The notes beneath the pieces were generated by a model. The model was not told the DNA's origin. It worked only from the letters and a program-made list of their open reading frames with translations, and did not search any database. Shown here piece by piece: positions 18,822 to 31,152 of a stretch of DNA of 64,000 nt (positions are counted from its first letter, which is position 1; every line of letters begins with the position of its first letter). A program made the position numbers and the translations under genes. The DNA is from Nitrospirota bacterium (GTDB taxonomy: Bacteria; Nitrospirota; Thermodesulfovibrionia; Thermodesulfovibrionales; JdFR-88): assembly GCA_021789215.1 (NCBI GenBank), contig JAJYJS010000008.1, forward strand, positions 18,276 through 82,275. Direction: 5' to 3'.

Positions 18822-20855
18822 ATGAAATTCCTGGAACTCCTGCAAAAACGCGGGGACTTTGCAGTGGCCCTGGCCGTGCTGGCCATACTGGGCGTCATGG
18901 TCCTGCCGATACCGCCCTTTCTGCTGGACCTGCTCCTTTCGACTTCCATCTCGCTTTCGATAGTCATACTGGTGACGGGCATATACATAAAAAAGCCCCT
19001 GGACTTCTCGGTTTTCCCCTCCGTGCTGCTCATGGCGACCCTTTACAGGCTTTCTCTTAACGTCGCCACAACAAGACTCATCCTGCTCAGGGGAAGCGAA
19101 GGGGTCGATGCCGCCGGGCACGTGATAAAGTCCTTCGGCAATTTCATTGTGGGCGGCAACCCTGCCGTGGGCTTCATAATGTTCCTCATCCTCATCGTTA
19201 TCAATTTTGTTGTCATAACGAAGGGTTCGGGCAGGATTGCGGAGGTCGCCGCCAGGTTCACTCTCGACGCCATGCCTGGCAAGCAGATGGCCATAGACGC
19301 AGACCTCAACGCCGGGCTGATAGATGACAAGGAGGCCAGGAGGCGCCGCTCACAGATAGCCCAGGAGGCGGACTTCTACGGCGCGATGGACGGCTCCAGC
19401 AAGTTCATAAGGGGGGACGCGATTGCCGGTCTCATTATAACAGGCATAAACATAGTCGCCGGACTGCTGATAGGAATAATCCAGAAGGGCATGCCCATTG
19501 CCGAGGCCGCGAAGACCTACACGATATTGACCATAGGCGACGGGCTTGTCTCCCAGATACCGGCCCTGCTTGTGTCAACGGCCGCGGGCATAATAGTCAC
19601 CAGGGCCGGGACTGAAAAGGACCTGGGCGGAGAGATAACCCGCCAGCTGGTGCTCAATCCCAAGGCGCTGGCGACGGCGGCCGGCATAATGGTAGTGCTC
19701 GGCCTTGTCCCGGGGCTCCCTCATATTCCTTTCTTCCTGCTTTCGGCCTCCTCCGGCGCTCTCGCCTATACCATCAATAAATCCGCCGAGGAGGAAAAAG
19801 AGGCGCCAAAGCCTGAGCCCGCCCAGCAGGAAACGCCGCTCGACTCCTACATCGAGATAGAGCCGCTCACATTCGAGCTTGGTTACGGCCTCATCCCGCT
19901 TGTGGATTCCGACAAGGCTGAACTCCTTGCAAAAATAAAGGCGTTAAGGAAGCAGCTTGCCACCGAGCTTGGTTTCATAGTGCCTTCCATACACATCAAG
20001 GACAACCTGCAACTGAGGCCGCATGAATACAGCTTCCTCATCAGGGGCATAGAAGTGGGCAAGGGAGAGATAATGACCGGCCATCTGCTTGCCGTCTCCA
20101 ACGGGCAGGCCGGGCCGATAGACGGCATCCCCACAAAGGAGCCGTCCTTTGGGCTGCCGGCCATATGGATAAACGAAAAAGACAAGGAGACGGCCCAGCT
20201 CAAGGGCTACATGGTGGTAGACCCGCCGACGGTCATAGCCACCCACATCACGGAGATGGTCAGGGCCCATGCCTCCGAGCTGCTCACAAGGACAGAGGTG
20301 CAGGGGCTCTTGAACAAGGTCTCCAGGAACAACCCAAAGATAGTGGAGGAACTGATACCTGCAAATATGTCGCTTGGCGGGGTCCAGCGCGTCCTCCAGA
20401 ACCTCATAAAGGAGAAGGTGCCGATAAACGACCTCGTGGTCATAATAGAGACGCTGCTGGATTATTCACCGGGCATAAAGGACACCGACCTGCTTACGGA
20501 GTACGTAAGGCAGTCCCTAGCGCGGTTCATAAGCAGGCAGTATCTCTCTCCCGACGGCGATATAAAGGTGATGGCGCTTGATGCAAGGTTCGAGAAGGAC
20601 TTCGCCCAGTCGATGGAGGCTGGCGGGGCATTGAACCCTGTTGTCCTGAGCAGGCTTATAAAGTCCATCGAGAGCGCCGTGATGGAGGACAGGTTCAAGG
20701 GCGGCCAGCCCGTTATACTCTGCTCCTCCAATATAAGGAGATTCCTGCGCAGGATGCTGGAAAAGTTCGTGCCCTCGGTGGTCGTGCTGTCCAATGCCGA
20801 GATATCCCCTGCAACGAAAATCCATTCAATAGGAGTTTTGAAGTATGAAGATTAA
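18822..20855 (+). CDS. flhA: Flagellar export gate protein FlhA
   Basis: Multi-TM N-terminus with FHIPEP-type segment RFTLDAMPGKQMAIDADLNAGLIDDKEARRRR. Confidence 0.97.
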   Translation: MKFLELLQKRGDFAVALAVLAILGVMVLPIPPFLLDLLLSTSISLSIVILVTGIYIKKPLDFSVFPSVLLMATLYRLSLNVATTRLILLRGSEGVDAAGHVIKSFGNFIVGGNPAVGFIMFLILIVINFVVITKGSGRIAEVAARFTLDAMPGKQMAIDADLNAGLIDDKEARRRRSQIAQEADFYGAMDGSSKFIRGDAIAGLIITGINIVAGLLIGIIQKGMPIAEAAKTYTILTIGDGLVSQIPALLVSTAAGIIVTRAGTEKDLGGEITRQLVLNPKALATAAGIMVVLGLVPGLPHIPFFLLSASSGALAYTINKSAEEEKEAPKPEPAQQETPLDSYIEIEPLTFELGYGLIPLVDSDKAELLAKIKALRKQLATELGFIVPSIHIKDNLQLRPHEYSFLIRGIEVGKGEIMTGHLLAVSNGQAGPIDGIPTKEPSFGLPAIWINEKDKETAQLKGYMVVDPPTVIATHITEMVRAHASELLTRTEVQGLLNKVSRNNPKIVEELIPANMSLGGVQRVLQNLIKEKVPINDLVVIIETLLDYSPGIKDTDLLTEYVRQSLARFISRQYLSPDGDIKVMALDARFEKDFAQSMEAGGALNPVVLSRLIKSIESAVMEDRFKGGQPVILCSSNIRRFLRRMLEKFVPSVVVLSNAEISPATKIHSIGVLKYED

Positions 20856-21930
20856 AAAATTCAAGGCCAGAAATTTTGCCGAAGCCCTGGAAATGGTCAG
20901 GAAGGAACTGAGCGAGGACGCGGTCATCCTTTCCTCGGAGGAGAAAAAGGGGCCTAAAAAACCCTTCGTTGAGGTGACTGCGGCGGTCGACTACGACTCT
21001 GACGTACAGGAGCACGCGCAAACCGAATCCGCCTGCGTCCACGCGGGGGCCGCCGCCGGGGGCATCACCTCCGAGGGGCTAAGGAGGTTCAGGGAAGAGA
21101 TAAAGAACGAGGTTAAATCGGAGATAGAGGGCCTGAGGATGGCCATAGAGGGCATGAAAAGGGGCGGGTTTGAGTTTTCCATGCCCAAGCAGAAAAGGCT
21201 CATGTTCAATTACCTGAGGGAAAGACGCATAAAGGAAGAGTTTGCCATGAGGCTTTGCGAAAAGGCCGGGGACTTTAACGACCTGCCGTCGCTCATCACG
21301 CGGGACGTGAAGACCAAAAGCGGCGAGGGCGAAAAGATCGTGATGCTTACGGGCCCCACCGGCGTGGGAAAGACGACCACTATCGCCAAGCTCAGCGCCC
21401 GCGCGATGAGGGAGGGCAGAAAGGTGGGGATCATAAACCTGGACACCTACCGGATAGGCGCGGTCGAGCAGGTGAGGATTTATTCAAGGATAATGGGCAT
21501 ACCTCTTGCCGTGGCCTCAACCCCCGGACAGCTGAGGACCCATCTGGCCAATTTCTCCAAAAGCAGGGACCTCATCTTCATAGACACCACGGGAAGGAAC
21601 CCCCGCGACGAGTCCTACATAGAAGACATGAGGCAGATGTGCGACACCGGCTTTCCGATGGAGCTTCACCTGCTGATTAGCGCGGGCGCCGACGACGAGG
21701 CCATGACGGAGGCCTACAGGAGCTACAGCCGGCTGCCCGTCGATTACATAGCCTTTACAAAGCTGGACGAGGCCGTAAAGTTCGGCCCTCTTTACAACAT
21801 CCAGATGGTCTATCAGAAACCCGTGGCCTATGTGACCACGGGCCAGCAAGTGCCTGACGACATGGAATTTGCGACGGCCGATATGCTCGGGGACCTGATA
21901 CTTTCGAAAGGGTGTTACAAAAAATGCTGA
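20845..21930 (+). CDS. flhF: Flagellar SRP-like GTPase FlhF
   Basis: MKIKKFKARNFAEALEMVRKELSEDAVILSS; GPTGVGKTTTIAKLSA; DTTGRNPRD. Confidence 0.95.
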   Translation: MKIKKFKARNFAEALEMVRKELSEDAVILSSEEKKGPKKPFVEVTAAVDYDSDVQEHAQTESACVHAGAAAGGITSEGLRRFREEIKNEVKSEIEGLRMAIEGMKRGGFEFSMPKQKRLMFNYLRERRIKEEFAMRLCEKAGDFNDLPSLITRDVKTKSGEGEKIVMLTGPTGVGKTTTIAKLSARAMREGRKVGIINLDTYRIGAVEQVRIYSRIMGIPLAVASTPGQLRTHLANFSKSRDLIFIDTTGRNPRDESYIEDMRQMCDTGFPMELHLLISAGADDEAMTEAYRSYSRLPVDYIAFTKLDEAVKFGPLYNIQMVYQKPVAYVTTGQQVPDDMEFATADMLGDLILSKGCYKKC

Positions 21931-22760
21931 AAGATTTCCAGAGCGGGAAAAAGAGCGTGAAGACGATAGCCGTGGCCAGCGGCAAGGGCGGGGTCGGCAA
22001 GACAAACGTGGTGGCCAGCCTGGCGTTTGCCGCGAGGAAGGCGGGCAAGAACGTGATGGTGCTGGATGCGGACCTGGGCCTGAGCAACATAGACGTCCTT
22101 TTGCAGCTTGCCCCAAGGTACAACATCCAGCATGTTTTGAGCGGGGAAAAATCGATAAAGGACGTGCTGGTGGAAGGGCCGGGCGGGATGAAGATACTGC
22201 CATCGAGTTCCGGGGTGCAGGAACTGACCTCTCTGGATGAATTCCAGAGGCTCAGGATAATGGAAGAGTTCGACACCTTCGAAGGCGATATAGATTTGCT
22301 GATAATAGACACGGCTGCGGGCATCTCCGAAAATGTCGCCTTTTTCTGCGTGGCCGCCGAGGAGGTCATAATAGTGACCTCGCCGGAGCCCACGGCCCTT
22401 ACGGATGCCTATGCCCTCATAAAAGTGCTCTGTACAAGATACCAGGAGCGCGAATTCGATGTGCTTGTCAATTCGGCAAAGAACTCTGATGAGGCGCTCG
22501 CCATTTACAAGAGGCTGCTTGTGGTGACGGAGCGGTTTCTGAACGTCTCGCTGAACTACATAGGCTATATCCCGTTTGACAACCATGTGAGCCGTGCGGT
22601 AAGGGCGCAAAGGGCGTTTGCCGAGCTGTATCCGGACAGCCCGGCTTCAAGGCAGATAACCGAGATAGCGGGCAGGATCATGGAGCCAGGGGGCAAGATA
22701 AAGGGGACGCTCCAGTTCTTCATAGGGAACCTGCTGTCAGGCCAGGAGAGATTCAAATGA
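21912..22760 (+). CDS. flhG: FlhG (FleN/MinD-like) flagellar number regulator ATPase
   Basis: Deviant Walker A ASGKGGVGKTNVVASLAFAARKAGKNVMVLDADLGLSNIDVLL. Confidence 0.95.
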   Translation: MLQKMLKDFQSGKKSVKTIAVASGKGGVGKTNVVASLAFAARKAGKNVMVLDADLGLSNIDVLLQLAPRYNIQHVLSGEKSIKDVLVEGPGGMKILPSSSGVQELTSLDEFQRLRIMEEFDTFEGDIDLLIIDTAAGISENVAFFCVAAEEVIIVTSPEPTALTDAYALIKVLCTRYQEREFDVLVNSAKNSDEALAIYKRLLVVTERFLNVSLNYIGYIPFDNHVSRAVRAQRAFAELYPDSPASRQITEIAGRIMEPGGKIKGTLQFFIGNLLSGQERFK

Positions 22761-23506
22761 GAGCTGAAACTTTTTACAAGCAGAAAAAAATGTCCGAGCA
22801 GGAAAAGGAGCAGCTTGTCAGGGAGTTCCTTCCCTTTATCAAATACACGGCCTACAGGCTCGCCTGGAGGCTCCCCAACCACCTGACCGTGGACGACCTC
22901 ATAAGCGTGGGGGCGATGGGCCTGCTGGACGCGCTCCAGAGATACGAGCAGGGCAGGGTGAAACTGAAGACGTTCGTCGAGTTCAGGATAAAGGGGGCAA
23001 TGCTTGACGAGATAAGGGCCTATGACTGGATGCCCAAATCGGTGAAGAAAAAGATAGACCTCGTAAAAAAATCCCATTCGAAACTCGAAAAGGAGCTTGG
23101 GCGCGTGCCGGAGGAGTCCGAGATAGCCGGGGACCTGGGGATATCGCTCGATGAATATTACGAAATCCTTCAGAACTCGAACAACTCCTCCATACTGAGG
23201 CTTGAGGACTTCAGGGGCGGCGAGGATGCCAGCATGGATGCATTGGAATGCATACGGGACCCCAATGCAAAAAACCCGCTTGAGTGCCTGATCGACTCCA
23301 GCCAGAAGCAGATGCTGGCTGATGCCATAAACAGGATTCCGGAGAAGGAAAAGATGGTGCTTTCCCTTTATTACTGGGAGGAGCTTACGATGAAAGAGAT
23401 TTCACAGGTGCTGGACCTGACAGAGGGCAGGGTCTCCCAGTTGCACAAACAGGCCCTCCTGAGGCTCAAATCCGAGCTTCAGTCCGGAGTTTCCCCTAAA
23501 GATTAA
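22757..23506 (+). CDS. fliA: RNA polymerase sigma-28 factor FliA
   Basis: Sigma70 region 2 (HLTVDDLISVGAMGLLDALQRY...FRIKGAMLDEIRAYDWMPKSV) and region 4 (LTMKEISQVLDLTEGRVSQLHKQALLRLK). Confidence 0.95.
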   Translation: MRAETFYKQKKMSEQEKEQLVREFLPFIKYTAYRLAWRLPNHLTVDDLISVGAMGLLDALQRYEQGRVKLKTFVEFRIKGAMLDEIRAYDWMPKSVKKKIDLVKKSHSKLEKELGRVPEESEIAGDLGISLDEYYEILQNSNNSSILRLEDFRGGEDASMDALECIRDPNAKNPLECLIDSSQKQMLADAINRIPEKEKMVLSLYYWEELTMKEISQVLDLTEGRVSQLHKQALLRLKSELQSGVSPKD

Positions 23507-23510
23507 GCAC

Positions 23511-25457
23511 TTGGGGGTCGATAAGTATTTATGTAACATGACAAAATCAATTGGCGTCAGGCAAATCAGGAAATTGATAAATGAGCTGGGCTCGCCAGAC
23601 CCCTCAAGGAGGCGGGCCTCGGCCGAAGGCCTGTCCTCATCTGATGAAAGGGCGCTTTTCCCGCTCATAAAGGCCCTCAAGGACGGGAATGCGGGCGTTC
23701 AGGACGCCGCCATGCACTCGATCGTCTCCATAGGCGGCGAGGCTGCGGCATACATGATAATCCCCATGCTGAGGGAAGAGGCATATGTCAGGAACATGGC
23801 CCTCATAATACTTGGGGAACTGGGCGGCACAGCGCTCCCTTATCTTTATCCGCTTTTAAACGACAAGGACGACGATGTGCGGAAGTTCGCCGTGGACCTC
23901 ATTGCCGGTATCGGGCACTGCGGCTGTCCGGAAAAACTGAGAGAACTGCTGAGGGAAGACCCTAACCCCAATGTGAGGGTTTCGGCGGCCAAGGCAATAG
24001 GGCTCCTCGGCTGCAAGGAGGCCATTGCCGACCTGACGGAGGCCCTGAAGGACTCCGAATGGGTGTGTTTCGCGGCCATAGAGGCATTGGTGTCCCTGAA
24101 CGGCGCCGGTTCGGTTGAACCCATGGTGTCCCTTCTTGAAAGCGGGTCGGAGCCGGTCAGGTTCGAGGCCATACAGGCGCTTTCAGGGATGGGTACGGCC
24201 CGCTCGATGGAGGTGCTGCTGAAGCATCTTTCAAATACTGAAATCGGCGAATTCGAAAAATCCATGACGGTGAGGGCGCTGCTGAACGCGGGGATAGTGC
24301 CTGAAATCGGCGGGGTTTACGAACTGCTCATGGACATGCTTCAAAACGGGGAGTGGGACGACAAAATCCTGGCCCTTGCGGGGCTTTCAAGGCTCGGAGA
24401 TGAAAGGGCGCTTTACAAAATAGTGGATATGGCCGGTTCACTCGACCCGTCGGAGCCCGATGCGGAAGACAAGTTCCATGCGTTCCGGGATGCCGTTATG
24501 CACTTCGGGTGCTCTGAACAGCTCCTGAATCTTTTGAACGGCGGAAGATTGAGGTACAGGGGGCTTGCGTTCCTGATAGGGCTCTTTGGCGACATGAAAT
24601 GCCTTCAGGCGGTCCCCCGGCTCGTTGAACTCCTTAAGACCGACCTCCGGGACGTAAAAAGGGCCAGCATGAACGCCCTCAAGGACATGGATGACGAATC
24701 GGTGGCTTGGGCGGCAATGGAAGCCGTGGAAGAGGACGACGCCCAGGTGAGGAAAGCGGCGGTCTCCGCCCTGGGGAAAATAGGCGACAGTTCCTCATCC
24801 CCGGCCATCTTCAGGCTGCTTGAGCAGGAGACCGAAGGGGGAGTGCTGGAAGAGGCCGTTAAGGCCATCCTGAAGATTGATCCGGCAACGTTTTATTCGA
24901 GGCTTAAATCCTTTGGCGAGCTGGTGCGGATACTGGCTGGCAAGTTCTCCGATGATGGGACCGTATTGCTTGGGCTGGCAGACGGCGAAAGCGTGCCTGT
25001 CAGGTGTTCGGCCCTGAAGCGGCTCGGGCAGCTTGGAGGCGAACAGGCCGGGCAAAAACTCATCCAGGCCGCTTCGGATGCCGAGCCGGAGATAAGAAAA
25101 TCAGCGGTCATGGCCATGGGCGACGGGGCCGCCTTCCGTAAACAGCTGCTTGAGGCGATAAAGGACGAAGATATGTGGGTCAGGCTTTACGCGGTCAAAT
25201 CGCTGGGCGGGTCGCCTGATGCCGAGTCGTTGGAAGCTATAAAAACGGCTTTGACCGACGAGGGCGTCCCGGTTGTCCTTTCCGCCATCGATGTGCTGGC
25301 GCGGCATGACTTTGCCGATGAGGCGGCTGCACGGACAATCTTTGAAACTCTTCTCACCCATCCCGAAGAGGCCGTGAGGGCCAGGGCCGGTCTGGAGCTT
25401 GCGACGGATGAAGGGTCCTGCCCGGCGGGGGACAAAGAATGCGGCACCGGGGCCTGA
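23511..25457 (+). CDS. HEAT-repeat (PBS lyase-like) protein
   Basis: Many ~30-aa repeats of the form D..VR..A..AL..LG....I..L...L.D. Confidence 0.85.
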   Translation: MGVDKYLCNMTKSIGVRQIRKLINELGSPDPSRRRASAEGLSSSDERALFPLIKALKDGNAGVQDAAMHSIVSIGGEAAAYMIIPMLREEAYVRNMALIILGELGGTALPYLYPLLNDKDDDVRKFAVDLIAGIGHCGCPEKLRELLREDPNPNVRVSAAKAIGLLGCKEAIADLTEALKDSEWVCFAAIEALVSLNGAGSVEPMVSLLESGSEPVRFEAIQALSGMGTARSMEVLLKHLSNTEIGEFEKSMTVRALLNAGIVPEIGGVYELLMDMLQNGEWDDKILALAGLSRLGDERALYKIVDMAGSLDPSEPDAEDKFHAFRDAVMHFGCSEQLLNLLNGGRLRYRGLAFLIGLFGDMKCLQAVPRLVELLKTDLRDVKRASMNALKDMDDESVAWAAMEAVEEDDAQVRKAAVSALGKIGDSSSSPAIFRLLEQETEGGVLEEAVKAILKIDPATFYSRLKSFGELVRILAGKFSDDGTVLLGLADGESVPVRCSALKRLGQLGGEQAGQKLIQAASDAEPEIRKSAVMAMGDGAAFRKQLLEAIKDEDMWVRLYAVKSLGGSPDAESLEAIKTALTDEGVPVVLSAIDVLARHDFADEAAARTIFETLLTHPEEAVRARAGLELATDEGSCPAGDKECGTGA

Positions 25458-25458
25458 A

Positions 25459-26277
25459 ATGGACATTGTCCTTCAAGAAACCACTTTCAGGCAGCTAAGG
25501 GACTTTATTTATGAGAAGTGCGGGATTTTCATCCCCGACATGAAGAAGTACATTGTGGAAAAAAAGCTCGCAGGCAGACTGCAGGCTAAAAACCTGAGGA
25601 GCTTCGAGGACTATTTCTATCTGCTCCAGTACGGCGGCAACGGCGACGAGATCGCGGGCCTTTATGACGCCATAACCACCAACGAGACATCTTTTTTCAG
25701 GGAGCCCAACCAGTTCAGCGTGCTCGCGGAGCATGTCATCCCGGAACTGCTGAAATCGAAGAAAACCGGAGACCTGCGCTTCTGGTCCGGCGCCTGCTCA
25801 ACCGGCGAAGAGCCCTATACGCTGGCCATCCTGCTAATGGAAAAAAAACTGCTGGCCCGGGCAAGCGTCATGGGGTCGGACATAAGCAACGAGGTCCTGA
25901 CCGCGGCCCAGCGGGGCATTTACGGGCCGTATTCCCTCAGGAACATGCCTGAACAGTATCTGAAAAAATATTTCAAGCCCAACAGCGGCCAGGTGTTCGA
26001 GATAGACGATTCCATCCGGAAGTCCGTCAGGTTCATGAACGTGAACCTGATGGACAGCAGAAAGACCAGGCTCGTTTCCTCTGCGGACGTGATTTTCTGC
26101 CGTAACGTGCTCATCTATTTCGACAACAAGGCCAAGCAGAAGGCAATTTCCAACCTGTATGATTCGCTCAGGCCGGGCGGTTTTTTGTTTATCGGCACCT
26201 CCGAGAGCCTTCATGACGTTACCAGGGCTTTCAAGCCTGTAATCATAAACAAGACCATCGTGTACCAGAGGGTATAG
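25459..26277 (+). CDS. cheR: Chemotaxis protein methyltransferase CheR
   Basis: TTNETSFFREPNQFSVLAEHVIPELL, FWSGACSTGEEPYTLAILL, DVIFCRNVLIYFD; ATG at 25459 after the HEAT gene stop. Confidence 0.95.
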   Translation: MDIVLQETTFRQLRDFIYEKCGIFIPDMKKYIVEKKLAGRLQAKNLRSFEDYFYLLQYGGNGDEIAGLYDAITTNETSFFREPNQFSVLAEHVIPELLKSKKTGDLRFWSGACSTGEEPYTLAILLMEKKLLARASVMGSDISNEVLTAAQRGIYGPYSLRNMPEQYLKKYFKPNSGQVFEIDDSIRKSVRFMNVNLMDSRKTRLVSSADVIFCRNVLIYFDNKAKQKAISNLYDSLRPGGFLFIGTSESLHDVTRAFKPVIINKTIVYQRV

Positions 26278-26280
26278 GAA

Positions 26281-26673
26281 ATGAAGATACTTGTTGTGGA
26301 CGATTGCCAGACTACGAGAAGGCTCCTCGGGTTCTATCTGAAGTCGAAGGGGTTCGAGGTGGCCACCGCCATAAACGGCCTTGACGCGATGGAGAAGATG
26401 GCCCGGGAAAACGTGAACCTTGTAATGACCGATCTGAATATGCCCTTCATGGACGGCATAGAGTTCATCAAGGCGCTCAGGGCAGACTCTTCATTCGCCG
26501 GCATACCCGTCCTCATGGTGACGACGGAGAAGGACGCCGAAGAGGAGAGGAGGGCCATTGACGCCGGGGCTGACGGCTTTTTGACAAAGCCGGTTACCTC
26601 CGAGGTGCTGGTCCGGAAAATAAAGGCGCTGATGAAATCCATATTCAGCAGAGGAGGCGATAATGACGATTGA
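26281..26673 (+). CDS. Single-domain response regulator (CheY-like)
   Basis: [15 protein letters not shown] ... [16 protein letters not shown] ... TKPVT. Confidence 0.9.
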
Positions 26674-27055
26674 CCCCAAAATGAAGATACTGGTCACGGA
26701 CGATTTTTCGACCATGAGGCGGATAGTCAAGAATGTGCTAAAGCAGCTGGGCTTCGAAAACATAGAGGAAGCCGAGGACGGGGCGCAGGCATATGCCAGG
26801 CTTACCCAGGAAAAATTCGATTTTGTGGTCAGCGACTGGAACATGCCCAACATGGACGGGCTGGAATTCCTCAAAAAGGTGCGTGCAAATCCCGAACTTA
26901 AGGAATTGCCCTTCCTGATGGTGACGGCCGAGGCCGAGAAGCCCAAGGTCATCGAGGCAATAAAGGCGGGCGTCAGCAACTACGTGGTAAAGCCTTTTAC
27001 CGCCGAGGTCCTGAAGGAAAAAATAGACAGGATATTCGAGAAGATGGGGAAATGA
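26663..27055 (+). CDS. cheY: Chemotaxis response regulator CheY
   Basis: [23 protein letters not shown] ... [20 protein letters not shown] ... NYVVKPFT. Confidence 0.93.
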
Positions 27056-27064
27056 GGTACAGCC

Positions 27065-28828
27065 ATGCCTGATGAAATGGATGAGATAATAGCCGACTTC
27101 ATTACCGAGGCCGAAGAGTCTCTGGACAGGATAGACCCGCTCTTTATCGAGCTCGATTCGAAGGGCTTTGACAGGGAGATAATAAACGAGATATTCAGGA
27201 GCATGCACACGATAAAGGGCGCGGCGGGTTTTTTGGGTTTCCAGCAGATAGTGGACGTCGCCCATGGCTCGGAGACAATCCTTAAAAAGCTCAGGGAAGG
27301 CGAGATGGAGGTGTCGGAAAGCCTTACCGCCGTCATCCTGAAGAGCTTTGACATGGTAAGGCTCCAGTTGAGGCATCTGAAGCTCAAGGACGGGGTGAAC
27401 GAGGGAACCGGCCCTCTGCTGAGAGAGCTTGAGGATGCGCTGAACAGTGCCCAGGGCGGCGGAAAGGTCCCCCCGCAGGCTGCGGAAGCGGCCCGCCCGG
27501 CTGAAAAAACTCCGGCTGTCCAGGGACCTGATAAAACAGCGTCCGGTAATCAGTGCGGGGCCGGAAAGGCCTTTGCTTCATCTCCCGAGAAGGCAGGCGG
27601 TGAAAAACCGGGGGCCGATAAGGGCGAGTCCATGCAGACGTTGAGGATAGGGATAGACAAGGTAGACCAGGTGATGAACCTGACAGGCGAGGTGGTGCTT
27701 ATCAGGAACAGGCTCCTGAACCTTATGGGGGAACTGGATAAAAAATATTCGGACGACCCCCACATAGAGAGTCTTATGGAGACCGTGTCTTTCCTGGATA
27801 TTTTGACGTCGGACATGCAGCTGGCCGTTATGAAAATGAGGATGCAGCCGCTCAAGAAGGTGTTCAACAAGTTCCCGCGCCTGGTGAAGGAGATATCCTC
27901 ATCGCTGGGCAAGTGTGTCGAGCTCAAGATATCGGGCGAGAACACCGAGGTGGACAAGTCCATCATCGAGCAGATAGGCGACCCGATGGTGCATATCATA
28001 AGGAACGCCATAGACCACGGGGTGGAAAGTGGAAAAGACAGGCTCGCCGGAGGGAAACCCGCGCAGGGCACCATCTCGATCAATGCCTACCAGAAGGGCA
28101 ACCAGATTGTAATAGAGGTCTCGGACGACGGCAAGGGCATAGACGTCGGGAAGGTCAAGAGGAAGGCGCTCGAAAAAGGGCTGATAAGCCCGGAGGAGGC
28201 GCAGAGGCTGGATGGCGACTCGGCTGTCAATTTGATATTCCTGCCGGGGCTGTCCACCAATGATGTCGCCACCGAGCTGAGCGGCAGGGGAGTGGGCATG
28301 GACGTTGTGAAGACCAACGTCTCCAAGCTCAGCGGGTTTATCGAGGTCATGACCAAGAAGGGTTCGGGCACAACGCTGAGGATGAGCCTTCCGCTCACGC
28401 TCGGCATCATCCATGCCCTGATGGTCGGCATAAACGGCTCCACATACGCCATACCGCTTGCGCTCGTGGATGAGACCCTGAAGATTTCCAGGGAGGAAGT
28501 CCATGAGATAGTGGACAAGAAGGTGCTCAACGTAAGGGGGAAGGTGTACCCCTTTTTCGAACTTTCGGAGCTGCTTGGAAACGGGGAGCCCTCCGGGACG
28601 GGCCACCGGTTTGTAATAATGGTGGCAATCGCGGACAGCCGTTTCTGCATAGGTGTGGACAGGCTGCTGGGGCTTCAGGAAGTGGTTATAAAATCCATAA
28701 CCGGAACGGAAACCACCTCACCCTGCATCCTTGGCGCGACCATATCGGGGGACGGCAAGGTGATACTCATAATCGATCTCGGGTACATATCCCGGAGCGC
28801 TTTCGACACTTTGCGGCATGAAAAATAG
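27065..28828 (+). CDS. cheA: Chemotaxis histidine kinase CheA
   Basis: HPt (IFRSMHTIKGAAGFLGF), P3/P4 (HIIRNAIDHGVES, GRGVGMDVVKTNV), C-terminal CheW-like domain. Confidence 0.96.
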   Translation: MPDEMDEIIADFITEAEESLDRIDPLFIELDSKGFDREIINEIFRSMHTIKGAAGFLGFQQIVDVAHGSETILKKLREGEMEVSESLTAVILKSFDMVRLQLRHLKLKDGVNEGTGPLLRELEDALNSAQGGGKVPPQAAEAARPAEKTPAVQGPDKTASGNQCGAGKAFASSPEKAGGEKPGADKGESMQTLRIGIDKVDQVMNLTGEVVLIRNRLLNLMGELDKKYSDDPHIESLMETVSFLDILTSDMQLAVMKMRMQPLKKVFNKFPRLVKEISSSLGKCVELKISGENTEVDKSIIEQIGDPMVHIIRNAIDHGVESGKDRLAGGKPAQGTISINAYQKGNQIVIEVSDDGKGIDVGKVKRKALEKGLISPEEAQRLDGDSAVNLIFLPGLSTNDVATELSGRGVGMDVVKTNVSKLSGFIEVMTKKGSGTTLRMSLPLTLGIIHALMVGINGSTYAIPLALVDETLKISREEVHEIVDKKVLNVRGKVYPFFELSELLGNGEPSGTGHRFVIMVAIADSRFCIGVDRLLGLQEVVIKSITGTETTSPCILGATISGDGKVILIIDLGYISRSAFDTLRHEK

Positions 28829-28860: not shown

Positions 28861-30042
28861 ATGCAATACATAGGGTTCAAGCTTGATTCGATAGAGTACA
28901 CGATACCGATCCTGAAGGTGCGGGAGATAATAAACACGCCGCAGGTGACACAGGTGCCGCAGTCGCCCCCTTACATCGAGGGTGTGATGAACCTGAGGGG
29001 CAGCATCACGATGATTGTGAACCTCAGAAAGCTGCTCAACATCCCCCAGAACGGCAATATCGGGACGAAGATAATCATCATATCCAGCGGCAAGATAACC
29101 TTCGGGGTCCTGGTGGACGGGATAACGGGCGTGATAGACATAGACGAGGCCGCCGTGGAGCATCCGGAGCGCTTCTTCAACGAGAAGATGGAGCAGATAA
29201 AGGGCGTTGCCAAGATAAACGACAAGCTCCTTGTCCTGCTTGAGCCCAGGAAGCTCGTCCCGCTTGAGGACGTCAGCCTCTTCGAGGACAACATCGTGGA
29301 CATGAAGCAGGGCGCTGACGGGAAAATGGAACTGGTCAGGAGTGTCCAGACCATGGCTGGAGAGGTGAAGGTCAAGGAGCTTGTCGACGCGAAAGAATTC
29401 TTCGAAAAGAAGAAAGACGGCAGTCCCGACGGCGCGGTCGCCGACATCGTTTCGTTTCTTGACCACATATCCAACCACGAATATGAAAAGGCGGACGAAC
29501 TGATACAGAAAATCATGAAAAAGGGCCAGGGGCAGCTCTATAACGAGCTTGGAAAGGTCACAAGAAAGCTCCATGACTCGATAAAGACCTTTTCCGACGC
29601 CATAGACCCCAAACTGAAGGACATGGCGACACATGAAATGCCCAGCGCGGTTGAACGCATAAACTACGTCATAGAGAAGACCGAAGAGGCGGCCAACAAG
29701 ACGATGAGCATCGTTGAGAAGTACACGCTGAGCATGGATGAGTTCGCCGGCCATATAAGGACGCTCAAGGAGCCGGAAGGCACCGTCGAATACCTGAGGA
29801 AATTCAAGAACAGTCTTGAGGACGACCTCACTGAGGTGCTGACCACGCAGTCTTTTCAGGATTTGACGGGGCAGGCGCTGAAAAAGGTCATAGAACTTGT
29901 TAAAGATATCGAGGATGAGCTGGTGAGGCTGATTACCACGTTCGGCCTGAAGCTGGATACGGGAGGGGTTGCGGTCCGGCAGTCGGCCGAGAAAGTCTCC
30001 CAGGCAGGGGTGGATGACCTCCTGAAAGACCTGGGCTTCTGA
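28861..30042 (+). CDS. CheW-CheZ fusion protein
   Basis: N-terminal CheW (YIGFKLDSIEYTIPILKVREIINTPQVTQVPQSPPYIEGVMNLRGSITMIVNLRKLL); C-terminal CheZ with FQDLTGQALKKVIELVKDIEDEL and terminal VDDLLKDLGF. Confidence 0.9.
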   Translation: MQYIGFKLDSIEYTIPILKVREIINTPQVTQVPQSPPYIEGVMNLRGSITMIVNLRKLLNIPQNGNIGTKIIIISSGKITFGVLVDGITGVIDIDEAAVEHPERFFNEKMEQIKGVAKINDKLLVLLEPRKLVPLEDVSLFEDNIVDMKQGADGKMELVRSVQTMAGEVKVKELVDAKEFFEKKKDGSPDGAVADIVSFLDHISNHEYEKADELIQKIMKKGQGQLYNELGKVTRKLHDSIKTFSDAIDPKLKDMATHEMPSAVERINYVIEKTEEAANKTMSIVEKYTLSMDEFAGHIRTLKEPEGTVEYLRKFKNSLEDDLTEVLTTQSFQDLTGQALKKVIELVKDIEDELVRLITTFGLKLDTGGVAVRQSAEKVSQAGVDDLLKDLGF

Positions 30043-30111
30043 CAGGAATAAGTAAAAACCGGTTCGGGTTATGCAATCTTTTTGCGCGATGCTGAAGGGA
30101 CAGGGGGCAGA

Positions 30112-31152
30112 GTGATCAGGGTAATGGTCGTTGACGATTCGGCCTTCATGAGGAAGGCCCTTTCGTCCATGCTTGAGTCCGACCCGGGAATAAAGGTCGT
30201 GGACACCGCCAAAAACGGGGCTGAGGCCGTCGAGAAAGTCGCGTCAGTCTGTCCGGACATAGTCACGATGGACATAGAAATGCCGGTAATGGACGGCCTT
30301 GAGGCCCTGAACCACATAATGGCCAAAACACCTGTGCCGGTGGTAATGGTAAGCTCCCTGACAGTGGAGGGGGCGAAAGTGACCCTTCAGGCGCTGGAGC
30401 TGGGGGCCGTGGATTTCATCCCCAAGAACATCTCCGAGCTTTCCATTAATATCATGAACGTAAAAAACGTGCTTATCGAAAAAATAAAGCAGATAGGCGG
30501 CAGGCGGCTTGTGCGGCCAGCGCTTGTGAAAAACAGGGTGACCCATATGCCCGCACTCCCGATGGTCCCGGGCGGAGTGGATATCGTGGCAATCGGCACC
30601 TCGACCGGGGGGCCGAAGACCCTTCAGCAGATTATCCCCGCCCTGCCAAAAGACCTGCCAGTCCCCGTGCTCATAGCCCAGCACATGCCGGCCAACTTCA
30701 CGGGTCCCTTTGCGGAGAGGCTGAATCAGCTGAGCCTTATAACGGTGAAGGAGGCCGAAGATGGCGAGCCGGTGAGGCCCGGAGTGGCTTATGTCGCCCC
30801 CGGAGGGGGGCATATGAAGGTGGCAAAAAGGGCCGTTACGTCCATTATTTCCATCACGGATGCCACCCACCAGAACTTCATATACAAGCCTTCGGTGGAC
30901 GCGCTTATGTCCTCGGTCGCCCTGCTTTACAGCCGCAAGGCCCTCGGCATAATCCTTACCGGGATGGGCAACGACGGTCTTCAGGGGCTTGCCGAGCTTA
31001 AGAAGGCGGGGGGCAGGGTAATCGCGCAGAACGAGGAAACATGCGTCATATACGGGATGCCTAAAGCTGTTGTAACGGCTGGGATCGCGGACAAAATCCT
31101 GCCGGCGGAAGATATTCCCGGAGAAATAATTAATTCTGTCCGGGGAGGCTGA
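30112..31152 (+). CDS. cheB: Chemotaxis methylesterase CheB (GTG start likely)
   Basis: REC domain (VVDDSAFMRKAL) plus methylesterase (IGTSTGGPKTLQQIIPALP, IAQHMPANFTGPFAERL, LTGMGNDG). Confidence 0.95.
   Translation: MIRVMVVDDSAFMRKALSSMLESDPGIKVVDTAKNGAEAVEKVASVCPDIVTMDIEMPVMDGLEALNHIMAKTPVPVVMVSSLTVEGAKVTLQALELGAVDFIPKNISELSINIMNVKNVLIEKIKQIGGRRLVRPALVKNRVTHMPALPMVPGGVDIVAIGTSTGGPKTLQQIIPALPKDLPVPVLIAQHMPANFTGPFAERLNQLSLITVKEAEDGEPVRPGVAYVAPGGGHMKVAKRAVTSIISITDATHQNFIYKPSVDALMSSVALLYSRKALGIILTGMGNDGLQGLAELKKAGGRVIAQNEETCVIYGMPKAVVTAGIADKILPAEDIPGEIINSVRGG

Follow-up and report, generated by a model that had tools for sequence, protein, structure and literature searches.

The question raised by this locus is whether the adaptor CheW and the CheY-P phosphatase CheZ are made here as one protein, and what such a protein would do in a flagellar chemotaxis pathway. 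The gene (P0001) lies at 28861..30042 on the + strand of the 64,000-nucleotide stretch of DNA that was analysed (the window). It is a single ORF with an ATG start, a TGA stop and no internal stops, encoding 393 aa with Pfam matches to both CheW and CheZ. The CheW domain (PF01584, E 5.1e-31) was located at residues 2-133 (28864..29259, +) with 107.6 bits against a curated cut-off of 23.5, and the PDB match of the N-terminal half (6e-19) was a CheW chain with the same sequence as that of E. coli. The CheZ domain (PF04344, E 5.5e-34, 118.3 bits against a curated cut-off of 30.7) covered residues 225-393 (29533..30039, +), comprising the hairpin of the four-helix bundle and the C-terminal tail, and the PDB match of the C-terminal half was E. 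coli CheZ (1kmi). These Pfam scores rule out a chance match as the source of the domain calls. An earlier note on this DNA, made from the letters alone, had read one polypeptide with CheW at residues ~1-140 and CheZ in the C-terminal ~200 aa, and had proposed a search of the translation with PF01584 and PF04344; the uninterrupted frame and the two matches far above their cut-offs bear out this reading. The NCBIfam model for the enteric CheZ equivalog (PRK11166) scored 72.2 bits, below its cut-off of 257. No receiver domain was found in the protein with Pfam, which sets it apart from the CheV architecture of CheW followed by a receiver. Finally, the AlphaFold model from the single sequence had a mean pLDDT of 43, too poor to use.

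The CheZ match was split into two blocks, residues 225-304 and approximately residues 310-393 (29788-30039), which correspond to profile positions 2-78 and 105-203. Alignment with E. coli CheZ (1kmi) placed the active-site motif FQDLTGQ at 29854..29874 (+), with D334 and Q338 equivalent to D143 and Q147 of E. coli. The earlier note was right about the motif and about the intact catalytic pair, while the start that it gave for the motif, 29857, falls on the Q and is corrected here to 29854. The Asp and Gln (DxxxQ) were kept in 32/32 fused rows of the CheZ alignment. The CheY-binding tail VDDLLKDLGF at the C-terminal end (30010..30039, +), which had also been described as intact, aligned with VDDLLDSLGF of E. 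coli; among the fused rows, the penultimate G and the final F were each present in 31/32. Between the two blocks, a shortened hairpin tip of ~5 residues (305-309; 29773..29787, +) replaces Pfam profile positions 79-104. The hairpin in the window's subclade is ~21 residues shorter, with 60 residues between fixed anchors vs 81 in E. coli CheZ. The tip motif D(D/E)WF was not found in the window protein, and E. coli alone has it among the 56 aligned rows. Free CheZ proteins from the phylum were likewise without it in the CheZ alignment, and the lack of the motif thus does not single out the fusions. Free CheZ at L045-L050, L076-L078 and other loci of families f29 and f32 had FQDLVAQ, FQDLLAQ or FQDLAGQ at the active site with the Asp and Gln kept. 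In addition, a second CheZ-like ORF of 248 aa (E 2e-24) without the canonical active-site motif was observed just downstream of a free CheZ at L085:8462-9205 (G281).

In the CheW half, positions E38, G57, R62, D103 and V108 (E. coli numbering) were invariant in 30/30 fused CheW domains, and position V36 was V or I in all 30 rows. We take V36, E38, R62 and V108 to be functionally weighty positions of CheW; the equivalent of R62 in the window protein is R46. The two domains are joined by a long and variable linker of ~90 residues (134-224; 29260..29532, +). Inside the linker is a semi-conserved peptide (residues 157-174, 29329-29382) with a consensus of about VTKxVxTMGGExxVKEV; residues 159-174 of the window protein read VRSVQTMAGEVKVKEL. 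Alignment of 31 fusions showed G167 in 30/31 and E173 in 28/31. The peptide is common to most fusions of the class and degenerate in L017, L018, L024 and L037.

The fusion belongs to a flagellar chemotaxis cluster, as flagellar genes flank the che genes and the whole neighbourhood is on the + strand. Upstream genes included flhA-flhF-flhG-fliA (18822..23506; Pfam FHIPEP, SRP54-type GTPase (FlhF-like), ParA-type ATPase (FlhG-like) and sigma-70 regions 2-4), cheR (25399..26277; Pfam CheR, 3.4e-57), a second single-domain receiver (CheY-like) whose slot is kept in relatives (26281..26673; receiver domain, 3e-29), cheY (26663..27055; receiver domain, 1.3e-30), which adjoins cheA or the fusion in relatives, and cheA (27065..28828; 587 aa with Hpt, dimerisation, HATPase and CheW/P5 domains in Pfam). 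Downstream of the fusion, cheB (30082..31152; Pfam CheB methylesterase, 2.5e-67, plus receiver) is followed by a receiver gene, an HDOD gene and flagellar genes. The order fliA-HEAT-cheR-rec-cheY-cheA-cheWZ-cheB recurs in relatives. The HEAT-repeat protein between fliA and cheR (648 aa, 23511-25457) is the same neighbour in most che clusters of the relatives, and another HEAT protein adjoins cheR and cheW on contig C41 of the host genome (G000). A CheY-docking P2 domain between Hpt and dimerisation was not detected with Pfam in the window CheA, nor was P2 detected in ten further CheAs of the phylum. Absence of P2 was ruled out as a mark of fusion genomes, since the CheAs of free-CheZ genomes were also without a P2 match.

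The host genome assembly is 2.2 Mb and 89% complete. A genome-wide domain search agreed with the earlier note that no separate cheW or cheZ lies in the window, where the only other CheW-domain match was the P5 domain of CheA itself. Elsewhere in the genome, a free cheW (175-aa frame) and a 314-aa CheW-domain protein were found on contig C41, a second CheA on contig C20, and seven receptor matches were above cut-off. The free CheW on C41 rules out the fused CheW as the sole CheW of the host genome. The same genome-wide search found CheZ once, within the fusion, and no match to CheC or CheX was found in the assembly; within the available assembly, no CheY-P phosphatase other than the fused CheZ is therefore recognised.

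The set of relatives comprised 101 genomes, namely that of the host and 100 others, and CheZ was above cut-off in 53/101. CheW and CheZ were in one open frame in 30/30 loci retrieved from these CheZ-bearing genomes. The survey of fusion frequency suggested in the earlier note showed the fusion in one frame in 44/44 class genomes read out, host's included, and in seven genomes outside the class (f22 3/4, f25 1/1 and f28 3/3). In a phylum sample of 396 genomes, the CheZ matches of the class sat in frames of ~390-485 aa except for a few shorter ones, which may be truncated at contig ends. Free CheZ was found in families f26, f29, f32, f33, f34, f35 and f38, of which the large family f29 has a stand-alone CheZ of 198-275 aa. 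The CheZ proteins of family f30 (L096, L103, L108, L113 and L114) carry an N-terminal extension of 145-215 residues. This region gave a marginal CheW match in 2/4 f30 proteins scanned and none in the other two, and it is possible that the adaptor function was lost there after fusion. Most relatives checked also keep free CheW genes, and a free cheW lies beside the fusion in families f3, f4, f8 and f15. In one genome (G068, 96% complete), no CheW domains were found besides CheA-P5 and the fusion. A frame of 502 aa with three tandem CheW domains was observed at G031:C1:107012-108439. When contigs were scanned with the fusion protein, the sole match was to a distant CheW-domain locus of a Lachnospiraceae MAG; in a plasmid collection, 29 records matched, all with less than 80% coverage of the query.

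The history of the fusion was read from domain trees. In the CheZ-domain tree, f22, f28 and f30 alternated with free CheZ in a second clade, separate from the class fusions. In the CheW-domain tree, a group with 93/76 support comprised most class fusions together with a single free CheW, and the fused CheW domains of f14, f22 and f28 fell outside this group. A constraint of all fusions to a single clade, and with it a single origin, was disfavoured for the CheW domains at AU p = 0.02, a weak result owing to long branches. Based on these trees, CheW and CheZ were probably joined more than once, or joined and later split. Gene orders were cheY-cheZ-cheA-cheV in f29, cheY-cheWZ-cheA in f3 and cheY-cheA-cheWZ-cheB in the window; comparison of the first two indicates that the fusion takes the cheZ slot in f3.

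We consider it likely that a bifunctional CheW-CheZ of the flagellar pathway, an array-docked adaptor and CheY-P phosphatase in one, is what this gene encodes. We infer array binding, dimerisation, phosphatase activity and localisation of this protein (CheWZ) as follows. As is usual for CheW, the CheW domain would contact the receptor tip and CheA P5 and in this way dock into the receptor-CheA lattice, and the CheZ half would dimerise as a four-helix bundle. The C-terminal tail of the CheZ half would capture CheY-P, which the Asp/Gln pair would dephosphorylate. With the CheZ half held in the array, CheY-P would be removed beside the kinase that makes it, and the covalent fusion would play the part that CheA-short binding plays for E. 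coli CheZ. As the fusion is common to the whole class, cells probably pin CheZ to the sensor array by this covalent link. An array-tethered CheZ is the natural reading, with good support from sequence, given that the CheW positions are kept in the fusions and the E. coli docking tip is missing from CheZ; read in the same way, CheW would stand in for the missing tip in docking. The genome without another CheW suggests that the fused CheW can act as an adaptor. Given the free CheW in most relatives checked and in the host genome, the main adaptor may be another CheW than the fused one.

Other readings of the locus were weighed against this evidence. An artefact in which two adjacent genes were joined by frameshift, read-through or misassembly, which the earlier note had named as a refutation, is rejected: nothing in its favour was found, and the same fusion was seen with no internal stops in 43 further class genomes, making 44 with the host's, among them the single-contig assemblies G022, G025, G067 and G327. 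The retention across the class, the domain scores and the intact catalytic and CheY-binding motifs thus indicate neither frameshift nor misassembly. Alternatively, the protein could be essentially a CheZ, with free CheWs building the array and its CheW domain lying outside the lattice or only weakly bound, surviving for a part in dimerisation, stability or receptor sensing. The free cheW genes that adjoin the fusion in f3, f4, f8 and f15, and are found elsewhere in most genomes including the host's, would fit such a protein, as would the decayed N-terminal domain of f30 (marginal CheW match in 2/4 scanned, none in 2/4). However, none of the 30 other fusions departs from the key CheW residues and the G068 assembly has no further CheW apart from CheA-P5, so that this reading is considered unlikely.

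It is also quite improbable that the gene yields free CheZ as well, by internal initiation or linker proteolysis, with only part of the phosphatase pool being tethered. Inspection by eye showed no obvious internal ribosome-binding site paired with a start codon, and the linker is conserved in part, although the linker (134-224) is long and variable with several internal Met codons, and E. coli cheA, which has two annotated starts and yields CheA-short, offers a precedent. The array-docked, bifunctional CheWZ is preferred. As CheZ forms dimers, each CheWZ dimer would carry two CheW domains, and we tentatively raise the idea, with rather low confidence, that the dimer bridges neighbouring lattice positions and serves as an array cross-link as well as a tethered phosphatase. 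If true, cross-linking would fix the phosphatase-to-adaptor ratio, and CheY-P turnover would depend on array state. In addition, the CheZ tail could concentrate CheY beside a CheA in which no P2 was detected.

CheW and CheZ as parent families are classical. Searches of an open-access library turned up no description of CheW fused to CheZ, and an earlier notice elsewhere is possible. In E. coli, CheA-short brings CheZ to the receptor patches, delocalised CheZ gives a less sensitive response, and why it matters that kinase and phosphatase co-localise is still being addressed by modelling (PMC2673030). CheA-short is bound by the D(D/E)WF hairpin tip of CheZ, and lost localisation weakens the response (PMC7750401). 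The CheW-CheZ fusion would be a different route to the phosphatase-at-array layout, beside CheA-short, ChePep and the CheA-CheC/CheX fusions. The lineage offers a natural test, as deletion of domains could take away or bring back localisation with CheA untouched. Overall, the fusion is functionally plausible, widely conserved and handy for asking why kinase and phosphatase co-localise.

Compared with known systems, the window protein resembles E. coli CheZ (1kmi) in family membership, the DLTGQ motif, the SQxxVDDLLxxLGF tail and, as proposed here, a phosphatase brought to the receptor-kinase array. However, the E. coli CheZ (214 aa) is a protein of its own that attaches non-covalently via the D(D/E)WF tip, whereas the CheZ of the window has a shortened tip and is joined to CheW. 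CheV (CheW-receiver; PMC4742279), a gene of whose type adjoins cheA and cheZ in the free-CheZ family f29, is similar in that a CheW domain places a fused signalling domain in the array, but the partner is a receiver rather than a phosphatase and there is no CheZ part. The CheA-CheC/CheX fusions of Leptospirae (PMC10782961) likewise have a CheY-P phosphatase domain within a core array protein, although the phosphatase is of another family and is fused to the kinase rather than to the adaptor. Finally, Helicobacter CheZ with ChePep and Azorhizobium CheZ, the latter also with a shortened hairpin (PMC7750401), are polar without CheA-short; their localisation depends on separate partners or on an N-terminal helix, while in the window protein this role would fall to a CheW domain.
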